Assembly (NCBI GenBank): GCA_945787445.1
Contig: CALZHT010000025.1
Location: 1 to 35,267, forward strand
Direction: 5' to 3'
DNA from: an uncultured Desulfobulbaceae bacterium
GTDB taxonomy: Bacteria > Desulfobacterota > Desulfobulbia > Desulfobulbales > CALZHT01
Length of the DNA stretch: 35,267 nt
How positions within the stretch are numbered: position 1 is the first letter of the stretch; every line of letters starts with the position of its first letter. The notes beneath the pieces were generated by a model. The model searched no databases and was not told the DNA's origin. It saw only the letters and a list, made by a program, of their open reading frames with translations. Positions 15,027 through 28,512 of the stretch are shown here, piece after piece. The translations under genes and the position numbers were made by a program.

Positions 15027-16448
15027 TTACAGAATTGCCTTTACGGCAGTGGAAGCAACTTCAATTATCCGTGCCGGGGCAAGGCCCATAAAGATGATGA
15101 TCACCATCAACGAAACGCTCAAGGCCTTTGTCATCCCATCCACATCAACCATGGGTTGATCTTCAGGATCACTGGCATAGGTTATACGTACCACGGAGAG
15201 ATAATAGTAAATAGAAATTGCCGTATTGAGGGCTGCCAAAATGACCAAGGGCAGGTGTCCTTCGCGCAAGGCGCCTGTCAACAGCATGAATTTGCCCATG
15301 AACCCGACAAATGGTGGTATTCCGGCAAGGGCGAACATACCGACCGCCAAGGTCAAAGCAAGCATTGGCGCCCTTTTGTGTAAACCGCTCAAGTCTTCGA
15401 TCAATACATTTTCCCCGTTCCGGGATACCTTGCAGATCACCAAGAAACAGGCAAGATTCATTACCAGGTAACCAACGATATAATACATTGCCGTGGCGTA
15501 CCCCGTCTCCTTCAAGGTGATCAAACCCAAGAGAACATAGCCGGCATGGGCAATACCGGAAAATCCGAGCATCCGCTTAATATCCTTCTGCACCAAGGCT
15601 ATGAGATTGCCGTAGAACATGGAACAAACAGCAAGCACCATAAGCATGGTTATGATGGTTTTGCCTTCAGGGGCAGCCAAAACGGCTATACGTATCAACA
15701 TGGCAACCGCAGCGATCTTGGGTACAGAGGCGATAAACGCGGTCGTCTCGTTAGAAGCACCCTCATAGACATCCGGCACCCAAAAATGAAACGGAAACAC
15801 CGCCAGCTTAAAGAAGAAACCGCCCATAACCATTGCAATGCCAACGATGACCGCTGGCTGGTCGTACATGGCATGCAGTCTTGGAATCAATTCATTAAGG
15901 TAGGTGGTTCCGGTGAGGCCAAAGAGGTAACTCATCCCGAAAAGCATCACCCCGGTGGCCACCACACCGAACAATATATATTTGATGGCCGATTCCATTT
16001 GGTAACGGAGACCGCCATGGTCGTCCCGCATGGGTACCAGCAAATATAAGGAATAGGAAGAGAGTTCCAGGGCAACAAACAAGGTTAAAAGTTCTACACT
16101 GCTGACCAGCATGATAAGCCCCATGGTGCTCAGCAATAAAAAGAGATAGTATTCGGCCTTCACATTCTGCTCAATTCCCTTAAGTTCCCTGCCGAAAAGC
16201 ACGACAACGAGAAGACCAAAGGACATGATGATTTTGAACAGCTGGGAGAATGGGTCAATTTTATAGGCGCTGAAGAACAATTCCCCGGTCAGGTCCTTGC
16301 ACCCCATGCAAATCAGAATATTGACAACAGCAATGGAGATTATGATATTCCGCGCTGTTTTTGCGTTTGATGAGCCCAAACTCACAAAAAACAAAACCAA
16401 ACAACCCAGGAGGAGAAATAATTCTGGAGCGAATAACATGACTTTCAT
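15027..16448 (-). CDS. nuoN: NADH-quinone oxidoreductase subunit N
   Basis: A 473-residue antiporter-like membrane subunit of complex I with about 14 predicted helices. Conserved pump residues are visible: the TM5 Glu in LFVALELSSYS, the TM7 Lys nine residues before W in FKLAVFPFHFWVPD, the TM8 Lys in SVPKIAAV and the TM12 Lys in FMGKFMLL. It is the last gene of the nuo operon. The start has GGAAGG seven bases upstream. No clear terminator was found in the 242 bases before tRNA-Gly. Confidence 0.95.
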   Translation of the reverse strand: MKVMLFAPELFLLLGCLVLFFVSLGSSNAKTARNIIISIAVVNILICMGCKDLTGELFFSAYKIDPFSQLFKIIMSFGLLVVVLFGRELKGIEQNVKAEYYLFLLLSTMGLIMLVSSVELLTLFVALELSSYSLYLLVPMRDDHGGLRYQMESAIKYILFGVVATGVMLFGMSYLFGLTGTTYLNELIPRLHAMYDQPAVIVGIAMVMGGFFFKLAVFPFHFWVPDVYEGASNETTAFIASVPKIAAVAMLIRIAVLAAPEGKTIITMLMVLAVCSMFYGNLIALVQKDIKRMLGFSGIAHAGYVLLGLITLKETGYATAMYYIVGYLVMNLACFLVICKVSRNGENVLIEDLSGLHKRAPMLALTLAVGMFALAGIPPFVGFMGKFMLLTGALREGHLPLVILAALNTAISIYYYLSVVRITYASDPEDQPMVDVDGMTKALSVSLMVIIIFMGLAPARIIEVASTAVKAIL

Positions 16449-16497
16449 ATTGATGCCTTCCGTTGGTCAATGATTAACATATCGAGACAACCGCCAT

Positions 16498-18030
16498 TTA
16501 CGGAATCAAACTGGCCATTGTTGTGGCGCCGTGCGAAGCGGCATTGACCTGTTCAATGAGATGATGCACACTGGTATGCATTACGTCTAAAAATGGGCTC
16601 GGTCCAAGCCCTATCCAAAACACAAACAGCAGAAGAGGCGCCAAAGTAATCACTTCCCGTGCATCCAGATCAAACAGATAGGACTGGTCCGGATTCTTGG
16701 TGCCGCCCCATACCACTTTCTGCAACATACGGAGCATATAGGCTGCAGCCAATACTGCACCGGGAATAGCGAAACTTGCTATGAGTGTCGAATGGGTGAA
16801 CCCCCCTGCCAATACTAAAAATTCACCGACAAAGGAGTTAGTGCCTGGAAAAGCAAGGGATGAAAGCGAGAAAAAGCCAAGAAATATGACATAGAGCGGC
16901 ATAAACTTCCCCACCCCGGTTGCCATGGCAAGTTCGCGGCTGTGGGTGCGTTCATAGATCATGCCAACCATGAGGAATAGGGCGCCGGTGGTTACGCCGT
17001 GGTTGATCATCTGCAGCATCGCCCCTTCAATCCCGTTTTTATTGAGGACGAAGATGCCCAGGGTGACGAAGCCCATGTGGCCCACACTGGAATAGGCCAC
17101 AAGTTTTTTCATATCGCTCTGGGCCAGGGCGGTGAAACCGCCATACAGGATGCCGGCGATGGAAAGCCACAAGATATAGGGCATAAAGGTAAAGGTGGCA
17201 TCAGGGGTGATGGGCAGGCAAAACCGCAAAAAGCCGTAGGTTCCCATCTTCAGTAAGACACTGGCCAGCACCACACTGCCGGCGGTGGGGGCTTCAACGT
17301 GGGCTGCCGGCAACCATGTATGGAACGGAAACATCGGCACTTTGATGGCAAAGGCCAGGAAAAAGGCAAGAAACACCCAAAACTGAAAGACAGTGGAGTA
17401 GCCTTGGCCCATCATATTGGGGATACTGAAGGATCCGGTCTTCAGGTACAGGGCAATGAGGGCCACCAGAAGCATTACTGAACCGGCCAGGGTGTACAGG
17501 AAGAACTTAATGGAGGCGTAAGTCTTTCTCGGCCCGCCCCATACGGCAATGAGCAGATACATGGGAATCAGCATGGCCTCCCACAAAATATAGAAAAGCA
17601 CGAAATCAAGAGCCATAAAAACACCCAGCATGGACGTTTCCATGATGAGCAGGCAGATCATGAACTCCTTCACTCTTTTCTGAATGTATTTCCATGATCC
17701 CAATACACAAAGGGGCATGAGCAAGGTGGTCATCAACACCAGCAGCAGGCTGATGCCGTCAATACCCAAGGTATACCAGATATCAAGGCCGGGGAACCAG
17801 GCATGGTGTTCGCCGAATTGGTATTTTGGCGTGGTTGGGTCAAAACCCCAATATAGCGGTAAAGATATCACCGCATTAGCTACCGTCACCACCAGGGCAA
17901 AATAGCGTACCGCGTTATCATTGTTGATAAACAACAAAACCAATGATCCTAATACAGGCAGAAAAATAATGATGCTTAAAATGCCGATATCGAAAAATTT
18001 ATAACTTTCGTTTATTAAGAGAAAATCCAT
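16498..18030 (-). CDS. nuoM: NADH-quinone oxidoreductase subunit M
   Basis: A 510-residue antiporter-like subunit. It shows the TM5 Glu in YILWEAMLIPMYLL, the TM7 Lys in AIKVPMFPFHTWLP, a Lys in LLKMGTYGFLR and the NuoM-type TM12 Glu in SFVGEFLVLAGG. Length and motifs are canonical. It lies 49 bases before nuoN and 19 bases after the NuoL-like gene. Confidence 0.96.
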   Translation of the reverse strand: MDFLLINESYKFFDIGILSIIIFLPVLGSLVLLFINNDNAVRYFALVVTVANAVISLPLYWGFDPTTPKYQFGEHHAWFPGLDIWYTLGIDGISLLLVLMTTLLMPLCVLGSWKYIQKRVKEFMICLLIMETSMLGVFMALDFVLFYILWEAMLIPMYLLIAVWGGPRKTYASIKFFLYTLAGSVMLLVALIALYLKTGSFSIPNMMGQGYSTVFQFWVFLAFFLAFAIKVPMFPFHTWLPAAHVEAPTAGSVVLASVLLKMGTYGFLRFCLPITPDATFTFMPYILWLSIAGILYGGFTALAQSDMKKLVAYSSVGHMGFVTLGIFVLNKNGIEGAMLQMINHGVTTGALFLMVGMIYERTHSRELAMATGVGKFMPLYVIFLGFFSLSSLAFPGTNSFVGEFLVLAGGFTHSTLIASFAIPGAVLAAAYMLRMLQKVVWGGTKNPDQSYLFDLDAREVITLAPLLLFVFWIGLGPSPFLDVMHTSVHHLIEQVNAASHGATTMASLIP

Positions 18031-18049
18031 GAATTATGACCTCATCATA

Positions 18050-19837
18050 TTACGCCAAAACATAGGCGACGATCACCACAGCCACGATTGTAACCGCATA
18101 AAAAATGTTATACTGCAACTGACCGCTCTGCATTCTCCTGGCAATGGCGCCTAATCCCCTAACGGAACGGGCAATGCCATCAACCACTCCATCAATGGCA
18201 TGCCAATCGAACCAGGACCAGAATTTGGCCTGTGTCATGAGAGGAATAAGCCCGACATAACGATAAAATTCGCTCACACAATTATCGACAAACTGGATGG
18301 GCTTTCTGGCTACCCAATAGAATACGCGACCACCCATGCGGTATGGCCAGTCCATATCGATGGAAATGGTGGGTTCCGGCGCCAACTTCTTGACAAACAG
18401 GAAGAAGCCAAGGGCGGTAAACAACAGTATCTGCAAGGTTTCCGACAGATGGTACGCACTGTATGGATTATATTGCGCCGCCAATTCAGGATAGGGCAGC
18501 ATAGTATAAAGATATGGGGTATAGCAGCCGATAAAAATACAGAGGATTGAAGCAGCTGCCATGGCCACATTCATGTTCCATGGCGGGTCTTTTGCCTTTT
18601 CCCAAGTCTCCTCGCTGCAATTGTTTTTGCCGAACCAGATGAAATAGGGAACCTTCAGGCCGGTGTGGAGAAAGGTTCCGGCCGAGGCTAGGGTAAGCAG
18701 GAAGGCAGGCCACAGCATATGTTCCTTGAATCCGGCCGCCACGATCATCGCCTTGCTGACAAAGCCGGAAAATAATGGAAAGGCCGAGATCGATAACCCC
18801 CCGATCAAGGTAAAAACAAAGGCCAACGGCATTTTCTTATACAGGCCACCAAGTTCGGTGAATTTGTTTTTGCCGGTCATGTGGAGCACCGAACCGCATC
18901 CCATGAACAATAAGCCTTTATAAAGGATGTGGGCAAAGGCATGGGCGCATGTACCGTTAATCGCCATCTGGGTACCAATCCCCACGCCGGTCACCATGTA
19001 GCCGACCTGGGATATGATGTGGTAGGCCAACAGTCGCCTGGCATCGTTTTCCAACACCGCGTAGACAACACCATAGAGGGCCATGAACACTCCAAGCGGT
19101 ATCAGAACATCCATGCCGGCAAAGCCGCGGCACAAGGCATACACCGCGGTCTTAGTGGTAAAAGCGCACATGAAGACAGCGCCGCTTACCGAAGCCTCAC
19201 CATAGGCATCGGGGAGCCAGGCATGGAAGGGCGGCACTGCGGCATTGAGAATAAAGCCGATCATGATCAGATAGGTGGATACGGAAGGAATGTCTACTCC
19301 TATGGGACCGAAGGACAGGTCGCCGCCGTTTGCCTGGTACCTGAGGATTATACCGGCAAGGAGTGCCAGACCTCCTGCCGTATGGACAAGGAGGTAGCGG
19401 TATCCTGTTGCCAATGACTCCTTTCTTCCCCTGAACCATACCAGAAACACGGAAGAGAAGGCCATGAGTTCCCAAAACAGGAAAAGCACCAGATAATCAC
19501 CGCAGTATATGACGCCAAGGGAGCCAGCCACATAGAGCCAGGCGGCAATGTGCTCCAGATCGTTTTCCACGTGCAGGCCGTAGATGGTGCCGATAATGCA
19601 CATCAAGGTCATGATGTAGCCGAATACCTGGCTGAGATTGTCGACCCGGCCGAAGGTAAGATGCCAATCCATGAAGGTGACGATCCCAAAGGTTCCCTTC
19701 TGCAAGAACAAGAAAACATCAATGAATGCCAGAAGCGGTACGAGCACTAAATAGGCCTTCTTGAGCGGCCGTGGTATAAACGGCAGCAGCAGAGCGCCAA
19801 CTATCAATATAAATGCCGGATGCAGGAAATCAATCAT
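18050..19837 (-). CDS. NuoL/MrpD-like antiporter subunit with C-terminal lateral helix
   Basis: A 595-residue proton-conducting transporter-family protein (MrpD/NuoL type). TM5 Glu is in LFWELMAFSS and TM12 Lys in FVSKAMIVAAG. At the TM7 lysine position, nine residues before W, it has Asn (ILNAAVPPFHAWLPDA), while the TM8 Lys in TTKTAVYALCR is present. After the last core helix (about 455) come ~110 mostly amphipathic residues. These end in VDGIARSVRGLGAIARRMQSGQ and a final membrane helix, closely resembling the NuoL lateral helix and its anchor. I infer it takes the distal NuoL position. It overlaps the upstream small gene by eight bases, with GAGGA five bases before the ATG. Confidence 0.85.
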   Translation of the reverse strand: MIDFLHPAFILIVGALLLPFIPRPLKKAYLVLVPLLAFIDVFLFLQKGTFGIVTFMDWHLTFGRVDNLSQVFGYIMTLMCIIGTIYGLHVENDLEHIAAWLYVAGSLGVIYCGDYLVLFLFWELMAFSSVFLVWFRGRKESLATGYRYLLVHTAGGLALLAGIILRYQANGGDLSFGPIGVDIPSVSTYLIMIGFILNAAVPPFHAWLPDAYGEASVSGAVFMCAFTTKTAVYALCRGFAGMDVLIPLGVFMALYGVVYAVLENDARRLLAYHIISQVGYMVTGVGIGTQMAINGTCAHAFAHILYKGLLFMGCGSVLHMTGKNKFTELGGLYKKMPLAFVFTLIGGLSISAFPLFSGFVSKAMIVAAGFKEHMLWPAFLLTLASAGTFLHTGLKVPYFIWFGKNNCSEETWEKAKDPPWNMNVAMAAASILCIFIGCYTPYLYTMLPYPELAAQYNPYSAYHLSETLQILLFTALGFFLFVKKLAPEPTISIDMDWPYRMGGRVFYWVARKPIQFVDNCVSEFYRYVGLIPLMTQAKFWSWFDWHAIDGVVDGIARSVRGLGAIARRMQSGQLQYNIFYAVTIVAVVIVAYVLA

Positions 19838-20081
19838 AATAGTCCTCGCGGGTCATGATTCCTAAATGACCAAACCATTTTGACACGAAAATAATGAGCA
19901 CGCATGCTACAAAGCCATAGAGAGACCACCAGCCCGGAATTTTCATTTCCATCCAGGTATGGGCATGTGATTTATCAACCAGAACAATATCTATTACCAC
20001 CAATACGGCAAGGACAGCATAGCTGGCCCAGATCGTGGCCTTAAGACGATCACGAAAAAAATCAATGAATTTAACTATCAT
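19830..20081 (-). CDS. Small two-helix membrane protein of the nuo operon, unknown function
   Basis: An 83-residue protein with two hydrophobic helices (about 17-36 and 51-70), a basic N-terminus (DFFRDRLKATIW) and an acidic tail ending EDYYD. I do not recognise a named family. It lies between two MrpD-like subunit genes, overlapping the upstream one by four bases (ATGA) and the downstream one by eight, so translation is probably coupled. That context suggests an accessory or assembly subunit of this complex I, or a bridging piece between antiporter modules. MrpF/MrpG-type small subunits were considered but their typical three-helix layout is not seen. Confidence 0.75.
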   Translation of the reverse strand: MIVKFIDFFRDRLKATIWASYAVLAVLVVIDIVLVDKSHAHTWMEMKIPGWWSLYGFVACVLIIFVSKWFGHLGIMTREDYYD

Positions 20082-21577
20082 CCGGTCACCGCCTTGACAA
20101 AATTCATGATAAAATCAGGATAAATCCCGATAATTACTGATATGATTGCGGCCAGGAAAAGTGGGATCACCATGGATAGGGACGCTTCCTGCACGCCGTT
20201 ATAGGTTTCGCCTGCCGGTCTTTTGCCGAAAAAGGCCTTAATGGTTACCGGTGCGAAATAGCCGACATTGAGCAGGGTACTGGCCAGGAGAACCAGGAGG
20301 AAAGCGATATTATGGGAGCTCATCTCCATGGTGCCGACCAGGAGTTTCCATTTGGTAACGAATCCTGCCACCGGCGGGGCGCCGATCATGGAAAGCGAGG
20401 CAATGGCAAAGGCTGCAAAGGTAAAGGGCATGGTACGTCCAAGGCCGCCCATTTCAGAAATATTCTTTTTATGACTTGCCACATAAATTGCCCCGGCACA
20501 GAAGAAGAGGGTGATCTTGGAAAAGGCGTGGTTGGCGATATGGACAAGGCCGCCCTCGATGGCGCTCGGGGTAAGCAGAGCAACACCCAGGATGATATAG
20601 GAAAGCTGGCTCACCGTAGAGTAGGCCAGCCGCGCTTTCAGGTTGTCCTTGGTAAGGGCAATAATCGAGGCGGTAATAATGGTGAAGGAAACGATATACG
20701 CGGTGGGAATGCCAAGGTTCAGAGCACCCATGGTGTCGGTGCCGAAAACATAGAGCATTACTCTGGTGGTGGAAAAGACCCCGACCTTTACAACGGCAAC
20801 GGCATGGAGTAGAGCACTGACCGGGGTGGGAGCAACCATGGCGCCCGGCAACCAGTTATGTACCGGCATGACGCCGTTCTTTGCAAAACCGAACAGGCAG
20901 AAAAAATAGAGTACTGTGACCATGGTGCCGCTTGCCCCGGCAGGGAAAATGCCGGTCTGGATATTGTTGGCAAAATCAAGGGTGCCGGTGATCACATAAA
21001 TGAGGATCATGGCAGGCAGCACTAAGCCCTTGGCTGTTGTGGTCAGATAAACAATATATTTTCTGGCGCCGTCGTAACCCTCATCATCCTGGTGATGCGC
21101 TACCAAAGGATAGGTGCAGACACTGACGATCTCATAAAAAAGATACAGGGTAAAGAGGTTGTCGGCAAAAGCCACGCCGATGGCGCCGAACAATGCCAGG
21201 GCAAAACAGGCGTTGAAGCGGGTCTGGGCATGTTCATGCAGGCCGCGCATGTAGCCCATGGAATAAAACACCGTAATAATCCATAAAAATGATGCCACAA
21301 AGGCGAAGATCATGGCAAAGGCGTCGACCCGGAAAGAAACGGTAATCGCCTGGTATGTATCGCTCATCTGGGGCAAGACCTCAAAGAGGGTGCAGACCAT
21401 CTTCTTGCCTGCCAACACCGTGGGAACCATGGAAGCGATTATGAGAAACATGGTGACGGCGGCAATGCACGAACAGGTTTCACGGAGGTTCTCCCGCTTC
21501 CCTGTCATGAGAACGCAAATGGTCCCAATGAGTGCCGCAAGAATTGCATATACCGGTTTATAGGATTCAACAATCAT
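20078..21577 (-). CDS. MrpD-like proton/cation antiporter subunit (extra complex I antiporter module)
   Basis: A 499-residue membrane protein of the proton-conducting antiporter family, with about 14 helices. The pump residues are complete: TM5 Glu in LFYEIVSVCTYPLV, TM7 Lys in FAKNGVMPVHNWLPGA, TM8 Lys in VVKVGVF, and TM12 Lys in FVTKWKLLVG. It ends at YPDFIMNFVKAVTG with no lateral helix, so it is not the terminal NuoL equivalent. It sits 17 bases after nuoK, where nuoL normally lies. It is commonly labelled Na+/H+ antiporter subunit D, but the surrounding nuo genes point to complex I membership. Confidence 0.87.
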   Translation of the reverse strand: MIVESYKPVYAILAALIGTICVLMTGKRENLRETCSCIAAVTMFLIIASMVPTVLAGKKMVCTLFEVLPQMSDTYQAITVSFRVDAFAMIFAFVASFLWIITVFYSMGYMRGLHEHAQTRFNACFALALFGAIGVAFADNLFTLYLFYEIVSVCTYPLVAHHQDDEGYDGARKYIVYLTTTAKGLVLPAMILIYVITGTLDFANNIQTGIFPAGASGTMVTVLYFFCLFGFAKNGVMPVHNWLPGAMVAPTPVSALLHAVAVVKVGVFSTTRVMLYVFGTDTMGALNLGIPTAYIVSFTIITASIIALTKDNLKARLAYSTVSQLSYIILGVALLTPSAIEGGLVHIANHAFSKITLFFCAGAIYVASHKKNISEMGGLGRTMPFTFAAFAIASLSMIGAPPVAGFVTKWKLLVGTMEMSSHNIAFLLVLLASTLLNVGYFAPVTIKAFFGKRPAGETYNGVQEASLSMVIPLFLAAIISVIIGIYPDFIMNFVKAVTG

Positions 21578-21594
21578 GTCTCTGTTCCCTTGTC

Positions 21595-21921
21595 CTAACC
21601 TTTGAGTTCCACGATGTCTTCCGTATCAATGGAGCGGTAATTGCGGTACACCGCAATTACGATGCTTAAAGCGATGGAGGCTTCGGCAGCTGCAATCGCC
21701 ATGATAAAGAGGGTAAAAATCTGCCCCACAGTTGGGTCCGGCGCCAGGAAGCGGTTAAACGCCATAAAATTAATGGATGCCCCTGAAAGAATGAGTTCTG
21801 CGGCAATGAGCATGCCGATCAGGGTCCGGCGCTGGAGAAGCCCGTAAAACCCCATGCCGAACAAAAATGCGCCGATGATGAGATATGTCTCAAGATTATT
21901 GCTTATATTCAAAAGGTTCAT
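21595..21921 (-). CDS. nuoK: NADH-quinone oxidoreductase subunit K
   Basis: A 108-residue three-helix membrane subunit. The conserved membrane Glu residues of helices 2 and 3 are visible in LIAAELILSGASINF and AIAAAEASIALS. It overlaps nuoJ by four bases. Length is normal. Confidence 0.96.
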   Translation of the reverse strand: MNLLNISNNLETYLIIGAFLFGMGFYGLLQRRTLIGMLIAAELILSGASINFMAFNRFLAPDPTVGQIFTLFIMAIAAAEASIALSIVIAVYRNYRSIDTEDIVELKG

Positions 21922-22445
21922 GCTTTCTCCCTGCCTTGCCTTGCCAATACAAGCGCTCCGATAATAGCCACCAAGAGGACCACGGAAATGAGTTCAAAAA
22001 CCATACTATATGTGGTGAGGAGCGATTTCCCCACCTCCCGCATGGAGCCGTCATTTGCCACGCTTACTGCAGCCTTCCAGTTGGTATTTCTGGCCAGTAC
22101 AGTCAATCCCCAGAACAACATCGCACCCACGGATAAACTGGCAACTCCGGCCAGCGCATTATTTTTGCCGACCTGTTTTTCAGGATGGGGTTCGGCCAGC
22201 ATAATGGCAAAAGCTATGGTGACGCACACCGCTCCAACATATATCAGCATTTCCATGAGTGCCACGAATGGACTGTTCAAAAAATAATAGAGGGCGGCAA
22301 CGCCGATAAAGCATATGGCAAGCCCAACAACAGCTCGGATAAGCCGTACCGAGTTTGTGGCGATTATCGCCCCCACAACAGTGGTTGCAATGGTTCCTAA
22401 GAAGACAAGGCCGGTCAGCCCGTCTGCTGAAAACAGTGAGTTCAT
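21918..22445 (-). CDS. nuoJ: NADH-quinone oxidoreductase subunit J
   Basis: A 175-residue membrane subunit with five helices. The conserved helix-3 region VALMEMLIYVGAVCVTIAFAIML includes the typical YVGA segment. It overlaps nuoI by one base and nuoK by four bases. Confidence 0.95.
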   Translation of the reverse strand: MNSLFSADGLTGLVFLGTIATTVVGAIIATNSVRLIRAVVGLAICFIGVAALYYFLNSPFVALMEMLIYVGAVCVTIAFAIMLAEPHPEKQVGKNNALAGVASLSVGAMLFWGLTVLARNTNWKAAVSVANDGSMREVGKSLLTTYSMVFELISVVLLVAIIGALVLARQGREKA

Positions 22446-22885
22446 CAGCTTTTTTCCTTTAATCTTTTTAACAGGTCAAAGATGAAATCATTTTTATCAA
22501 AACTGGCAAGGTTATAGTCCTTTGAAAATTCAATGGCGTTGGGCTTGCAGCTTTCCACACATTGGCCGCACAGACTGCACGTTGTAAAATTAAGGATATA
22601 TCTGGTCAAAGCCTTTTTCTTTGAGCCCTCAGGCTTCTTGCCGGCAACCGTGATGCACCCTGTAGGGCAGGCCTTCTGGCACATGCCGCATACTATGCAT
22701 TTGGATTCTCCGGTCTCTTCATCTTGTGTCAACTGGATATGGCCGCGGAATCTGGGCTTCATCTCCAGGGTTTCATAAGGATACTGTAGCGTGACCACCG
22801 GCTGGAAAAACGCTTTGATGGTAATTCCCAAGCCTATTGCCAGGCTTTTGGTCCCTGTAAAAAGTTCTGTAAAATAGCCGCTCAT
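22445..22885 (-). CDS. nuoI: NADH-quinone oxidoreductase subunit I (two 4Fe-4S clusters)
   Basis: A 146-residue iron-sulfur subunit passing electrons to NuoB. Two ferredoxin motifs are present: CIVCGMCQKACP with C63, C66, C69 and C73, and CSLCGQCVESCKP with C103, C106, C109 and C113. The N-terminal amphipathic helix (IGLGITIKAFFQP) is typical. The ATG at 22885 lies two bases after the nuoH stop; a longer frame to 23083 is overlap with nuoH and is rejected. Confidence 0.96.
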   Translation of the reverse strand: MSGYFTELFTGTKSLAIGLGITIKAFFQPVVTLQYPYETLEMKPRFRGHIQLTQDEETGESKCIVCGMCQKACPTGCITVAGKKPEGSKKKALTRYILNFTTCSLCGQCVESCKPNAIEFSKDYNLASFDKNDFIFDLLKRLKEKS

Positions 22886-22887
22886 GG

Positions 22888-23877
22888 TTAAAACACCTTT
22901 ATCATGGCACCGGTTAACAGCAGATTCACCAGCGAAATTGGAATGAGAACCTTCCAGGACAGGTTCAGCAGGGCATAGAACTGTACGCGCGGATAGGTCC
23001 AGCGGATCCACACCACCGTCCAGATGAGCAAATACAATTTGGCCAGGAACCACCACCACCCGGGAGCAAGGCCGAAAGGACACTGCCAGCCGCCAAGGAA
23101 CAGAATGGTTGTTACAGCGCAGCCAATGACGATGTTGGCATATTCCCCCATGAAGAAGACTCCGAACCCCATGCCTGGATACTCGGTATAGGCCCCGGCA
23201 ATCAATTCGCTTTCCGCTTCGGCCAGATCAAAAGGAGCCCGGTTCGTCTCAGCAAGCGAGCAGATAAAGAAAATAAGAAAGGCCACCGGCATCAATGGAC
23301 TTGCCGTGAACCTGAAGACATACCATTTGAAAATATTGGGCTGCTGCATCACGATCTCATTAAGGTTCATGGTCTGGGTAACCATGACCATGGTGATAAC
23401 CGTAATGAGCATGGGAATTTCATAGGCGACATTCTGGGAAACAGCCCTGGCCGCAGAGATAACGGCATATTTGTTGTTGGAGGCCCAGCCGCCGATGAGG
23501 ACGCCCAAGACATTCACCGAGGCAAAGGCAAAGATCATGAGCAGACCGAGGTTGATATCACGGGCAACCAGGGTCTCGCTGAATGGAATGGTGACAAAAC
23601 TCATGACCGCAGGCACCAGCAGGAGGATGGGGGCTACTTTGAAGAGCACCGGATCCACCCCCGCGGGCAGAAATAGCTGCTTGGTCATCAGCTTAATGCC
23701 GTCCGCTAAGGGCTGCAGCAAGCCAAAAGGTCCAACCTCTTTAGGACCTATGCGCCGCTGGATATGGCCGGCGCCCTTGCGTTCCACCCACACCAGGTAG
23801 GCAGCGTTCAAGGCGGCAAAGAGAATAAGACATGTAAGATAAATAACCAACCGCAAGACTTCTGGAATGGGGTTCAT
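22888..23877 (-). CDS. nuoH: NADH-quinone oxidoreductase subunit H
   Basis: A 329-residue membrane subunit that forms much of the quinone site and the link to the peripheral arm. Signature segments: VERKGAGHIQRRIGPKEVGP, LLQPLADGIKLMTK, GWASNNKYAVISAARAVSQN, and AETNRAPFDLAEAESELIAG. Length is normal. It lies nine bases after the nuoD stop. Confidence 0.97.
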   Translation of the reverse strand: MNPIPEVLRLVIYLTCLILFAALNAAYLVWVERKGAGHIQRRIGPKEVGPFGLLQPLADGIKLMTKQLFLPAGVDPVLFKVAPILLLVPAVMSFVTIPFSETLVARDINLGLLMIFAFASVNVLGVLIGGWASNNKYAVISAARAVSQNVAYEIPMLITVITMVMVTQTMNLNEIVMQQPNIFKWYVFRFTASPLMPVAFLIFFICSLAETNRAPFDLAEAESELIAGAYTEYPGMGFGVFFMGEYANIVIGCAVTTILFLGGWQCPFGLAPGWWWFLAKLYLLIWTVVWIRWTYPRVQFYALLNLSWKVLIPISLVNLLLTGAMIKVF

Positions 23878-23886
23878 AATAGCTCC

Positions 23887-25005
23887 TTACCTATCTATCT
23901 CCGGAATAACCAGGTCAAGGCTGCCCATTAAGGCAAGGGCATCCGCCAGCAGCATACCTTCGCTCGCCTCTTCGAACAGGCTCAAATTGGAATACGTCGG
24001 GGAGCGCAGTTTCAGCCGGTAGGGCGTGTTGGTTCCGTCGGACACTATCCGAACGCCAAATGATCCCCGGGCCGCCTCCACCGCGCAGTAGTAATCACCT
24101 GCGGGTGGCTTCAGTGTTTTGGGCACCTTTTTTGCCTTAACCGGCCCTTCCGGCAGTTTATCTATGGCCTGTTCAATAATCCGCATACTCTGTTCCATTT
24201 CATCCATGCGCACCATATACCGCGCCATGGAATCACATTCCGTATAAACCGGGATATCGAAATCAAACTCAGGATATACGGAATAGGGCTCATTTTTACG
24301 CAGATCAAAATTAAAACCCGAACCGCGGGCCACAGGACCGGTGGCTCCATAGCGGGTAACCATGTCCGGCGGTATGGGGCCGATATCCTTTAACCGTTTG
24401 ATGAGGATGATATTTTTGGTGACCAGGCCGTGGTACATGGGGAGCCGTGAACGGAGCCGAGAAATAAACGCCTTGGTGCCGACGAGGAAATCATCTTCCA
24501 CATCGTTGTACACGCCGCCAAAGCGGTAATAACAATAGGTCAACCGTGAGCCGGTAACACCTTCCAGAAGATCAAGGATCTGCTCCCTGTCATCAAAAGC
24601 ATAGAGCAAGGGGGTGAATCCGCCAAGATCAAGAACAAAAGCGCCGAACCAGAGAAGATGGCTGGAAATGCGGTTGAGTTCCGTGGTAATGACGCGGAGG
24701 TATTCGGCACGCTCCGGCACTTCAATGCCTGCGGCTCTCTCCACTGCCATAACATGCCCATGGTTATACGCCAAGGCATGGAGATAATCCATCCTTCCGG
24801 TATTGGGGAGAAACTTGGCCCAGGTCCGGTTTTCTCCCATCTTTTCATGCATGCGGTGGATATAGCCGAGAACCGGTTCGGCACGAACAACATATTCGCC
24901 GTCCATGGTGAGCTTAACCCTGAGAACCCCATGTGTTGCCGGGTGCTGGGGCCCCAGATTCATGACAAACGTCTCCTGCGTCTGGCTTAAGGCAAATTCA
25001 CTCAT
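23887..25005 (-). CDS. nuoD: NADH-quinone oxidoreductase subunit D
   Basis: A 372-residue 49-kDa-type subunit related to NiFe-hydrogenase large subunits, forming the quinone pocket with NuoB. NLGPQHPATHGVLR near the N-terminus carries the conserved His-rich loop, and RAEYLRVITTELNRISSHLLW, RGSFGVRIVSDGTNTPYR and the end GSLDLVIPEIDR are canonical. The hydrogenase NiFe-binding Cys pairs are absent, as expected. It overlaps nuoC by four bases. Confidence 0.97.
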   Translation of the reverse strand: MSEFALSQTQETFVMNLGPQHPATHGVLRVKLTMDGEYVVRAEPVLGYIHRMHEKMGENRTWAKFLPNTGRMDYLHALAYNHGHVMAVERAAGIEVPERAEYLRVITTELNRISSHLLWFGAFVLDLGGFTPLLYAFDDREQILDLLEGVTGSRLTYCYYRFGGVYNDVEDDFLVGTKAFISRLRSRLPMYHGLVTKNIILIKRLKDIGPIPPDMVTRYGATGPVARGSGFNFDLRKNEPYSVYPEFDFDIPVYTECDSMARYMVRMDEMEQSMRIIEQAIDKLPEGPVKAKKVPKTLKPPAGDYYCAVEAARGSFGVRIVSDGTNTPYRLKLRSPTYSNLSLFEEASEGMLLADALALMGSLDLVIPEIDR

Positions 25006-25565
25006 GGGGTATAGTCCTTCAATAATGGATGGAAATCAGCGTCTTCAGGGAGGAGCAGCGGCGACAGGTCGGGATGGCCCATGAACTCAATACCGAAAAA
25101 GTCGTGGGTTTCCCGTTCGTGCCAATTGGCCCCTGCATAAACTTCGGAGATCGTAGGTAGCTGCGGAGTAGATCGTGGAACCCGTGTTCTCACTACAACC
25201 CGGCAGAGCTCCGCCATGTTGTTGTAATCATAAACAACTTCGAATTCTTCCTCCTTCAGCCAATCCACTCCCGTGACTGCCTCGATAAAGAAATTTTCCT
25301 TATAGAGGATTTTGGCTGCCTCCACCACCTTATCCGGAGCGACCTGCACATCCAAATGGAAACCCTTTGCCCGATAATCGGTTTCCATAATCGGCGGTCT
25401 TGGTTTTTCCTCCTCCTTCCCTTCCGGGGCCTCAGCCGGGGCCTCACCCTCAGCGCGCTCAACAGTTTCAGGGGTTTCAGTAGCAGCCAGATCCTCTGCA
25501 GAAACTTCTTCTTCCGTACTTAATGCCACAGCGGCTAATTCTTTTTTGATCGTGTCCAACAGCAT
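25002..25565 (-). CDS. nuoC: NADH-quinone oxidoreductase subunit C with acidic N-terminal insertion
   Basis: A 187-residue 30-kDa-type subunit of the peripheral arm. The conserved C-terminal motif NWHERETHDFFGIEFMGHPDL is clear. Residues about 17-60 are a Glu/Ala/Pro-rich disordered-looking stretch (ETPETVERAEGEAPAEAPEG) that replaces the usual short N-terminus. The ATG at 25565 shares its A with the nuoB stop (TAATG) and has GGAGG seven bases upstream; eight extra upstream codons are less likely. NuoC and NuoD are separate, not fused. Confidence 0.94.
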   Translation of the reverse strand: MLLDTIKKELAAVALSTEEEVSAEDLAATETPETVERAEGEAPAEAPEGKEEEKPRPPIMETDYRAKGFHLDVQVAPDKVVEAAKILYKENFFIEAVTGVDWLKEEEFEVVYDYNNMAELCRVVVRTRVPRSTPQLPTISEVYAGANWHERETHDFFGIEFMGHPDLSPLLLPEDADFHPLLKDYTP

Positions 25566-26074
25566 TATTTGGCCTCCACCCTGGGCCATCTCCGGCTTCC
25601 GGTAATTTTTTCTTCCAGATGCAGAATTCCTTCAATCAACGCCTCAGGCCTGGGAGGACAGCCTGGAACATAAACATCAACCGGCAGGAACTTGTCTGCA
25701 CCTTCAACAATGCCGTACTGGCCTTTAAAGACAAATGGACCGCCGGATATGGCGCAGTTGCCCATGGCAATGACCCACTTGGGTTCCGGCATCTGGTCAT
25801 ATAGGGTTTTCACGGCCGGGGCCATTTTATGATTGATTGTTCCTGCCACTATCATCACATCACATTGACGCGGTGAGGGCCTGAAGACCTCGGCGCCGAA
25901 GCGGGCTAAATCAAAACGAGAGGCACCGGTGGCCATCATCTCGATGGCGCAGCATGCCAGACCAAAGGTCATGGGCCACAAGGAATTGGCCCTGCCCAGC
26001 CCAAGTAATTTATCGAGCTGGGTAAGCTTAACAACTGACTGAATTAATGAAGGCTGTACGCTTTCCGTTCCCAC
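25565..26074 (-). CDS. nuoB: NADH-quinone oxidoreductase subunit B (N2 cluster)
   Basis: A 169-residue subunit holding the terminal 4Fe-4S cluster N2 next to quinone. All ligands are present: adjacent C41-C42 in [11 protein letters not shown]107 in [11 protein letters not shown] and C139 in [10 protein letters not shown]. It starts with GTG at 26074, preceded by GGGAG seven bases upstream, inside the last 31 bases of nuoA. Confidence 0.97.
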
Positions 26075-26454
26075 TTAAACACTCCCTTCTTCCAGGCATA
26101 AACTACTGCCAGTGACAAAATTCCGACAAATATCACTATTTCGACAAAATCACGAATGACAAAATCCTGGTCATAGGCAAGGGCAACCGGAAAGAGGAAC
26201 AGCACGTCAACATCAAAGGCCAGGAACATCAAGGCGTACAAATAATAGACTATGCCGAACCGGACCCAGGCCTCGCCGATGGGGACCATGCCGCATTCAA
26301 TAATCTGATCTGTTTTGTTGATAATGTTGCGGGTGCCGCGGGGGGCAAGCAAGAAGGCAATAATGAAAGGGCCGATGGCGAAACCTAAACCGCCAATCAT
26401 AAAGGCGACCACATAGAGAAGATCTAATTGATCAAAAAGGGCCTGCTGTTCCAC
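26044..26454 (-). CDS. nuoA: NADH-quinone oxidoreductase subunit A
   Basis: A 136-residue three-helix membrane subunit and first gene of the operon. Conserved features: [25 protein letters not shown] with the loop Cys, and [15 protein letters not shown] in helix 2. The start is GTG (GTG GAA CAG), with AAGGAG nine bases upstream. A promoter lies about 75 bases upstream. Confidence 0.95.
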
Positions 26455-26527: not shown

Positions 26528-26556
26528 TATTTATCGTAATAAAAACCCGGTGTCAA
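26528..26556 (-). promoter_or_regulatory. Sigma-70-type promoter of the nuo operon
   Basis: On the minus strand TTGACA (26556-26551) and TAAATA (26533-26528) are 17 bases apart. The implied 5' leader before nuoA is about 65-70 bases. A perfect palindrome lies five bases upstream of the -35 box. Confidence 0.65.
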
Positions 26557-26561
26557 GAAAA

Positions 26562-26581
26562 AACTGAATGATCATTCAGTT
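26562..26581. promoter_or_regulatory. 20-bp perfect palindrome next to the nuo promoter (candidate operator)
   Basis: AACTGAATGATCATTCAGTT is self-complementary over its full length. The core TGAATGATCATTCA resembles operators of TetR-family regulators, such as FadR/PsrA-type sites. Its place just upstream of the -35 box fits an operator or activator site. On the minus strand it could also form a weak hairpin followed by Ts, so a terminator reading is possible but less likely given its AT-rich stem. Confidence 0.55.
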
Positions 26582-27087: not shown

Positions 27088-28512
27088 TTACAATAAATCG
27101 AGCAATTTTTGATGAATATTATCAAAGCTGCCATTGGAAAGGATTGCGATCACATCCCCTTCCATGGCGTTTTCGACCAGATAATCAAGAATGGAATCAG
27201 TATCGGCAAAATAATGGGCGTCAACACTTTTTTCACAGAGATCGTGCACAAGACGGTTGGAAGAAAAGCGCTCCTGCTCGGCAATATTCTGTAAGGGATC
27301 AGGCTCTTTCACTACAACACGATCAGCAGCCCCGAACGCTCCGGCATAAGCCTCTTGAAAAATCCGGCGTCGGCTGGAATTTGTTCGCGGCTCAAAGACG
27401 GCAATGAGCCGGTGCCCGTCATAGGCAGCCTTCAAAGCACCAAGAGTTTCGCGCACCGAGGTCGGATGGTGGGCAAAATCATCAATTACGGTAATGCCCC
27501 GTTTGACTCCCCTGACTTCCTGCCTCCTTTTCACCCCTTGAAAACCCTGTAAACCCTTGGCAATACGTTCTTCATCAATTCCCAGTTGATCAAGAACCGC
27601 GATCACAGCCAAACTGTTCAAGGCGTTATGCCGGCCTGGAATTCTGCTAATAAAATTCCCATAAAAGTTCCCTTCCTTATTGACTGAAAAGAAGGTGCCG
27701 TCAGGTGTAACGGTTATCTTCGCAAGCTGCCATGAGAGGCCGTGGGAGACGCCATATCCCAGGACAGCACATTTAGCGGCACCTACCACCTCCATAACAA
27801 CAGGATCATCAAGGTGGGCGATAATACAACCATCTTCCGGGACAATTTCAACAAGTTTTGCAAATGATCTTTTTATGGTTGCCAAATCAGGATAGATGTC
27901 GGCGTGGTCGAATTCTATGCTGGTAATCACAGCAATCTTAGGCTGATAATGAAGAAATTTCGGCCCTTTATCAAAAAAGGCGGTATCGTATTCATCTCCT
28001 TCCACCACAAAATACTTTCCGCTATTTACATTGAAATTCCTGCCAAATGCCTGGACTATACCGCCAATCATGAAACCCGGCGTGTGGCCTGCTGCATCAA
28101 GAAGCGTGGCAAGAAGCGAAGAACACGTAGTCTTGCCGTGGGTGCCGGACATCACTAGAGATGTTTTCTCCGAGAGAAAAAAATGGCGCAAAGCTTGTGG
28201 CAAAGAGACATACGGTAAGGCTAAACGTGCCAGCGCTTCCGCCTCTGGATTGTTTTTGGTGATGACGTTACCGACCACGACCAGATCCGGCCCGGGTGAT
28301 AAGTTCTGCGGCCCATATCCTGCGTTTATAGCAATTCCCTGGCTCACAAGGAAATCGCTCATGGGCGGATAGACCTGGGCATCAGAACCGCTGACATGAT
28401 ACCCTATGCTTTTGAGCATGCCTGCCAAGGCGCCCATGCCGGTGCCACAGGCGCCCATGAGATGTATATGGTTAATTTCCGAGGGGAATGTATTTAGTAA
28501 AGGATCAAGCAC
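27088..28512 (-). CDS. mpl: UDP-N-acetylmuramate:L-Ala-gamma-D-Glu-meso-DAP ligase (Mpl)
   Basis: A 474-residue Mur ligase that recycles murein tripeptide by attaching it to UDP-MurNAc. The N-terminal Rossmann segment HIHLMGACGTGMGALAGML, the ATP loop MSGTHGKTTCSS, and the Mpl-type EGDEYDTAFFDKGPKFLHY distinguish it from MurC. The C-terminal ligase domain contains DDFAHHPTS and EPRTNSSRR. It starts with GTG at 28512, 17 bases after a small unknown gene; no strong ribosome-binding site is seen. DAP-type peptidoglycan and a Gram-negative wall are implied. Confidence 0.92.
   Translation of the reverse strand: MLDPLLNTFPSEINHIHLMGACGTGMGALAGMLKSIGYHVSGSDAQVYPPMSDFLVSQGIAINAGYGPQNLSPGPDLVVVGNVITKNNPEAEALARLALPYVSLPQALRHFFLSEKTSLVMSGTHGKTTCSSLLATLLDAAGHTPGFMIGGIVQAFGRNFNVNSGKYFVVEGDEYDTAFFDKGPKFLHYQPKIAVITSIEFDHADIYPDLATIKRSFAKLVEIVPEDGCIIAHLDDPVVMEVVGAAKCAVLGYGVSHGLSWQLAKITVTPDGTFFSVNKEGNFYGNFISRIPGRHNALNSLAVIAVLDQLGIDEERIAKGLQGFQGVKRRQEVRGVKRGITVIDDFAHHPTSVRETLGALKAAYDGHRLIAVFEPRTNSSRRRIFQEAYAGAFGAADRVVVKEPDPLQNIAEQERFSSNRLVHDLCEKSVDAHYFADTDSILDYLVENAMEGDVIAILSNGSFDNIHQKLLDLL

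Follow-up and report, generated by a model that had tools for sequence, protein, structure and literature searches.

The window, by which we mean the whole analysed stretch of 35,267 nucleotides from an uncultured Desulfobulbaceae bacterium, carries a presumed nuo operon of 12 genes on the minus strand (15027..26454); that these genes form a single transcript is inferred from their orientation and spacing. The first gene, nuoA (26047..26454, minus strand; PF00507, E 4.6e-27), starts at 26454 and is followed by nuoB, C, D, H, I, J and K and by four Proton_antipo_M subunits (L/M/N-like), one above the usual number. Neither nuoE, F nor G was found among the ORFs scanned, and the electron donor is therefore probably not NADH. 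A second, diverged nuoA-like stretch, with 43% identity and one in-frame TAG reported, was noted at G000:C18:13133-13495.

Upstream of nuoA we read a promoter on the minus strand, composed of a -35 box TTGACA (26551..26556), a spacer of 17 bases (26534-26550) and a -10 box TAAATA (26528..26533), for which there are no transcription start data. A simple promoter scan did not list it, because the scan accepts only T as the sixth base of the second hexamer, where TAAATA carries A; the call is backed by the sequences of relatives. Five bases (26557-26561) separate the -35 box from AACTGAATGATCATTCAGTT, a perfect 20-bp palindrome at 26562-26581 that has no strand. It was the sole match within three mismatches in the whole window, none of 100 shuffles gave one, and the palindrome is not a chance occurrence. 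Relatives retain the inner 14 bp, TGAAT-N4-ATTCA, which in the window spans 26565-26578 and lies 8 bp from the -35 box; we predict this core to be the operator of a FadR-like TetR protein. The sequence TGAATGATCATTCA has one more copy within one mismatch in the genome. The gene upstream of the site, Mur ligase-like, lies on the same strand and ends at 27088, about 500 bp off, so no divergent gene was recognised for the site to serve. The original prediction had placed a palindrome five bases from a TTGACA-17-TAAATA nuo promoter, and all of these details were correct. It had also stated that the window holds no regulator gene; this held for TetR genes, none of which is on the window's contig, while for other kinds of regulator gene the ORF list was checked by eye only.

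Upstream nuoA sequences were collected for 57 of the 58 genomes from the window's order (Desulfobulbales, by inference), and these 57 include a weak nuoA match in G012 (E 2.9e-12). In a positioned test that sought TGAAT-N4-ATTCA with up to two mismatches, 4-17 bp before a TTGAC box, 47 of the 57 genomes had the site, 38 of them exactly. The gap between operator and -35 box was 8 bp in 29 genomes, 6-9 bp in 45 and 16 bp in two, placing the nuo operator near -50, upstream of a -35 box that is the consensus TTGACA in most genomes. Loss of the palindrome upstream of nuoA in relatives had been named as a refutation of the original prediction, and on this count it was not refuted. When up to one mismatch was allowed anywhere within 300 bp, the site was found in 43/57 genomes, against a mean of 0.52 and a maximum of 2 for 29 permuted half-sites. 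The looser positioned test gave a mean of 1.9 for the 29 decoys, with one decoy half-site reaching 18/57; such high decoy counts, seen at nuo and again at dsrA, might be off-register matches to the same site, although this is only a guess. The ten genomes without a positioned nuoA site were G007, G008, G018 and G048 together with six of family f11 (G012, G022, G031, G039, G047 and G054). Three genomes (G005, G026 and G056) carried two tandem sites at nuoA.

We then considered which protein could bind the site. The window's genome has four TetR genes. One of them (G000:C13:29266-29877) is on another contig, flanked by greA- and purD-like genes, and carries TGAACGCTCATTCA at positions -87 to -74 relative to its start; the other three were rejected as the regulator, there being no near-exact site in front of any. 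The candidate protein contains a TetR N-terminal DNA-binding domain (PF00440, E 6.3e-12) and matches the YsiA-like C-terminal region PF08359 with 74.7 bits (cut-off 21; E 1e-20). A sequence comparison with the PDB places it closest to FadR of B. halodurans and B. subtilis (34-35% identity). An AlphaFold model with a mean pLDDT of 84 found B. subtilis FadR first in a fold search (3whb, TM 0.91 to the target), followed by the B. subtilis FadR stearoyl-CoA complex (3whc, 0.88-0.91). The protein scored 178.8 bits with the NCBIfam FadR equivalog model, under the cut-off of 200, and we therefore call it FadR-like rather than FadR. ArgR, the first family suggested by the core, was rejected as the binder: PF01316 was found in 0/58 genomes, with a positive control in 9/14 named genomes.

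Orthologs of the candidate above 190 bits were present in 53/58 genomes, and 45 of these 53 have the site in the gene's own promoter, no more than 300 bp away and with one mismatch or none (29 exact; decoys mean 0.86, largest 5). In a separate collection of named genomes, 77 of 80 TetR loci could be scored, of which 67 had the site and 42 had it exactly. In seven of the ten named loci without the N4 site, a wider N8 form is all that is present. Those ten include the TetR gene of Desulfurivibrio sp. AMeS2, and neither it nor those of G028 and G006 has a site of its own within one mismatch. Of the other three TetR genes in the window's genome, those at L003 and L004 had no site within two mismatches near the gene starts, and the one-mismatch site at L006 falls within a neighbouring ORF some 770 bp off. 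Together, these data make the FadR/YsiA-like TetR protein the likely binder of the palindrome; the binding is inferred, as there are no binding data. The idea that the palindrome is a TetR operator of the acyl-CoA-sensing kind is thus supported by a YsiA/FadR-like TetR gene that has the site in its own promoter, with binding and ligand both inferred. The proposed scan of the genome for more copies and for a TetR gene bearing its own site returned 22 exact core sites and one such gene. Direct regulation of nuo is likewise supported by a conserved operator beside the promoter, with neither repression nor activation shown.

What the original prediction missed is that the same site lies before dsrA and sat. 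Matches to sat, dsrA and aprB were present in 55, 56 and 50 genomes, respectively, and the 30 best loci of each were scored. The site was found at 29/30 dsrA promoters, 26 of them exact, the sole miss (G045) having only 57 bp of upstream DNA; decoys at dsrA averaged 0.62, with one decoy half-site reaching 8/30. At sat it was found in 22/30 promoters, two of them exact, usually as TGAAT-N4-GTTCA. A further 12 dsrA and eight sat promoters from families f11 and f12 and from genomes without the TetR gene had the site exactly at 10/12 dsrA promoters and within one mismatch at 6/8 sat promoters; G048 has an exact dsrA site at a different position. Only 2/30 aprB promoters had the site, so the regulon does not span the whole pathway. 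We dropped APS reductase as a regulon member on this ground, and aprB serves as a negative control; the exact site 133 bp before aprB in the window's genome is probably local or due to chance. Taking a 17-base spacer and an assumed -10 box, the operator begins 7-14 bp past that box in 29/30 dsrA promoters and 12-23 bp past it in 22/30 sat promoters. From this position we infer that a dimer on the DNA would stop transcription of dsrA and sat at initiation or in early elongation, as a repressor would.

Across the 58 genomes we counted 558 exact sites, compared with 34 for the reversed pattern, a rough control based on summed counts. Nineteen of the 22 exact sites in the window's genome lie outside ORFs of at least 110 codons. 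Among the genes beside these sites, Pfam confirmed sat, aprB and dsrA, a pyrophosphatase-like DHH/DHHA2 protein, ATP synthase I, a carbonic anhydrase, multihaem cytochromes, and an RsbRD-domain gene with a nitrate-reductase-gamma-like (DsrM-like) gene behind it. Inspection by eye picked out no fatty-acid gene next to the 22 sites, although not every neighbour was scanned. There are two exact sites at sat in this genome (L053, 1106 and 1212). Two further exact sites lie 27 bp apart (L054, 1417 and 1444) beside a phospholipase-D-like gene, with no respiratory neighbour.

Sites were also read in four named genomes. The 2.8-Mb genome of Desulfurivibrio sp. AMeS2, a genus assigned to Desulfobulbales by NCBI, has only four exact sites, which precede ATP-synthase b, an RsbRD-domain gene, nuoA and dsrA. 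Its coordinates coincide with those of G028, a genome of the window's order, from which we infer that the window very likely falls in Desulfobulbales. Four of seven sites were read in Desulfoprunum benzoelyticum DSM 28570 and include those at the TetR gene, at sat and at the hemL 3' end ahead of ATP synthase I. In Desulfofustis sp. PB-SRB1 (four of six sites read) they were at ATP-synthase b, RsbRD and NiFe hydrogenase genes, and in the MAG STE_37 (four of eight read) at the TetR gene and nuoA. The ATP synthase and RsbRD sites come from the window's genome and from these named genomes, without an order-wide count.

If the TetR protein is the binder, its loss might be accompanied by loss of the operator. 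No TetR match was found in G012 (one contig, 99% complete) or in G008. In G012, dsrA and sat are without the operator (loci L282 and L292), and in G008 there is none at sat and only a one-mismatch match at dsrA, far downstream of promoter-like sequences. Of its f11 sister genomes, five were read and all five retain an exact dsrA operator, and G012 and these sisters could represent a natural loss experiment. However, G019, in which no TetR ortholog was detected (E 0.001), still has an exact nuo site plus dsrA and sat sites, and G042, with weak TetR matches only, also has an exact nuo site. Assembly gaps may lie behind these two cases. Because these two genomes break the pattern, the co-loss of TetR gene and operator is only suggestive.

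We also sought the composite of operator plus TTGAC in 297 genomes of the phylum, members of the order included, and found it in 47. Where the locus was readable, a position ahead of nuoA was confined to genomes of the order (L323-L326). Families elsewhere in the phylum have the composite before genes for acetyl-CoA synthetase (L329-L335, seven genomes of f46, with Pfam run on L329), 3-hydroxyacyl-CoA dehydrogenase (L314, and L320 by likeness) and thiolase (L318). The f46 composite, TGAATGATCATTCATTTTT(C/T)CTTGAC, is nearly invariant before the acetyl-CoA synthetase genes. In further families it stands before YeeE/YedE-like transporter genes named by eye (L336, L338, L339 and L342), which may serve sulfur import. 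Targets among acyl-CoA genes outside the order would fit an older acyl-CoA regulon that was rewired to respiration; this remains no more than a possibility, as the TetR ortholog was not sought in those families.

What the findings above show directly is where the site lies, how it and its spacing are conserved, that it recurs at dsrA, sat and the TetR gene, and that the protein is FadR-like. Our preferred reading, which we consider likely, is that the palindrome is the operator of a FadR-like TetR dimer and is shared with dsrA, sat and the regulator's own gene in most genomes of the order sampled; binding, ligand and the sign of regulation at nuo are inferred. Under this model, a dimer of the FadR/YsiA-like protein, encoded elsewhere in the genome, would occupy the palindrome. 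The regulator would repress its own gene, as inferred from operator position, and in most of the genomes sampled would act on dsrA, sat and nuo through operators of this kind, with repression at dsrA and sat again inferred from position. In several genomes the RsbRD-domain gene and ATP synthase genes would also be under its control. By analogy with Bacillus FadR, the free protein would bind DNA and acyl-CoA would release it, and carbon and electron supply would thereby raise the sulfate-respiration chain. At nuo, a dimer near -50 may hinder the alpha-CTD of the polymerase or may serve activation. Hindrance seems the more likely of the two because the -35 box is already optimal, and activation stays open because the distance between operator and -35 box is nearly fixed.

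Several other explanations were weighed. The one that survives best, although we lean slightly against it, is that the regulator binds as proposed and senses a ligand other than long-chain acyl-CoA, such as a short acyl-CoA, a sulfur intermediate or a redox signal. In its favour, the recognised targets are respiratory rather than fatty-acid genes, and the protein scores under the NCBIfam FadR cut-off. Against it, sequence and fold are nearest to Bacillus FadR, the stearoyl-CoA complex included, and in other families the composite precedes acetyl-CoA synthetase, hydroxyacyl-CoA dehydrogenase and thiolase genes.

It is also possible, if less favoured, that the same regulator activates at nuo, where a dimer near -50 would contact RNA polymerase, and represses dsrA, sat and its own gene. 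The distance to the -35 box (6-9 bp in 45/47 positioned sites) supports this, as does the place upstream of that box, a location from which activation by HcpR was inferred by Rodionov and co-workers (PMC545781). However, a consensus TTGACA rarely needs an activator, B. subtilis FadR, a relative, is described as a repressor (PMC4525379), and common descent alone also preserves distances.

We consider it unlikely that the site serves a different regulator, such as a CRP/FNR or other TetR protein, that has the FadR-like gene merely as one of its targets; the CRP/FNR, Rex and MarR families were not searched. Consistent with this alternative, exact nuo sites remain where the TetR gene is missing (G019) or only weakly matched (G042), and the TetR gene of Desulfurivibrio sp. 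AMeS2 has no good site. Against it stand the site in the FadR-like gene's promoter in 45/53 genomes, a half-site, TGAATG, that agrees with the B. subtilis FadR box, the lack of ArgR in all 58 genomes and the other three TetR genes without a near-exact site. Finally, that the palindrome is an intrinsic terminator of the upstream Mur ligase-like gene, another RNA hairpin or chance is all but excluded: the minus strand has an 8-bp stem with TTTTTT directly after it (-6.4 kcal/mol, z -2.8 in a 36-base piece), but the stem is weak and A/T-rich with no z-score signal in a 61-base piece, the upstream gene ends about 500 bp away (27088), a terminator scan listed none, an Rfam search of the window returned only two tRNAs and no match at the palindrome, and the site keeps its distance to the -35 box and recurs at dsrA, sat and TetR promoters.

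On the preferred reading, the palindrome is likely one of several operators through which a FadR-like TetR protein would control a predicted regulon of respiratory targets, serving sulfate respiration and energy conservation. Transcriptional control of the core pathway in sulfate reducers is largely open. The evidence points to a single regulator gene, a single 14-bp operator and a short list of targets kept across many families of the order, and suggests that acyl-CoA pools on the carbon side, the ligand being inferred, set expression of the sulfate-respiration machinery. The operator system also occurs in named strains (Desulfurivibrio sp. AMeS2 and Desulfoprunum benzoelyticum DSM 28570), and one purified protein with a few DNA fragments would make the question of the regulator testable. 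A bolder reading, which we would neither back nor bet against, is that in Desulfobulbales a FadR-like, acyl-CoA-sensing repressor was rewired from fatty-acid degradation to global control of sulfate respiration and energy conservation, with sat, dsrAB, an RsbRD/dsrM-linked operon, complex I and ATP synthase as its targets. If true, this would provide a dedicated direct regulator of dsrAB that ties acyl-CoA supply to the terminal electron-accepting pathway.

In the open-licence literature searched, which did not extend to RegPrecise or subscription journals, we found no description of a FadR-like regulator of sulfate respiration or of this operator. The core TGAAT-N4-ATTCA is also that of the ARG box, but ArgR (PF01316) is lacking from the genomes sampled; the Rex motif has another half-site phase. 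The closest parallel in target genes is HcpR, a CRP/FNR-family protein of Desulfovibrio predicted for sat and apsAB, not dsrAB (PMC545781). Its predicted sulfate-reduction regulon likewise includes sat and has repressor-like site positions, but it belongs to another protein family, and its motif is TTGTGA-N6-TCACAA or, in D. psychrophila and Desulfuromonas, ATTTGACC-NN-GGTCAAAT (PMC545781). In D. psychrophila, hcp and frdX genes are named as carriers of HcpR sites (PMC545781). The palindrome does not match the HcpR motifs given in that paper; the HcpR protein was not searched for. In Desulfobacteraceae, TetR-type repressors beside SulP sulfate transporters were proposed in 2025 to modulate sulfate use (PMC11887813). 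That proposal differs from ours in resting on gene neighbourhood and concerning sulfate uptake, with no operator or relation to FadR in the relevant passages. A FadR-named TetR regulator is known in another sulfate reducer, Desulfococcus multivorans, whose FadR2 sits in a myristate-degradation cluster that it is proposed to control (PMC5109826). The nearest solved relatives are Bacillus FadR (YsiA) of B. subtilis and B. halodurans, which share the YsiA-like C-terminal domain and the half-site TGAATG. FadR of B. subtilis is a repressor of fad operons, and long-chain acyl-CoA inhibits it (PMC4525379). The Bacillus FadR box is TGAATGA-N4-TCATTCA, and this box has eight bases between TGAAT and ATTCA, whereas there are four at nuo, dsrA and most TetR promoters here. 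The conserved targets also differ, being dsrA, sat and nuoA rather than fad genes.
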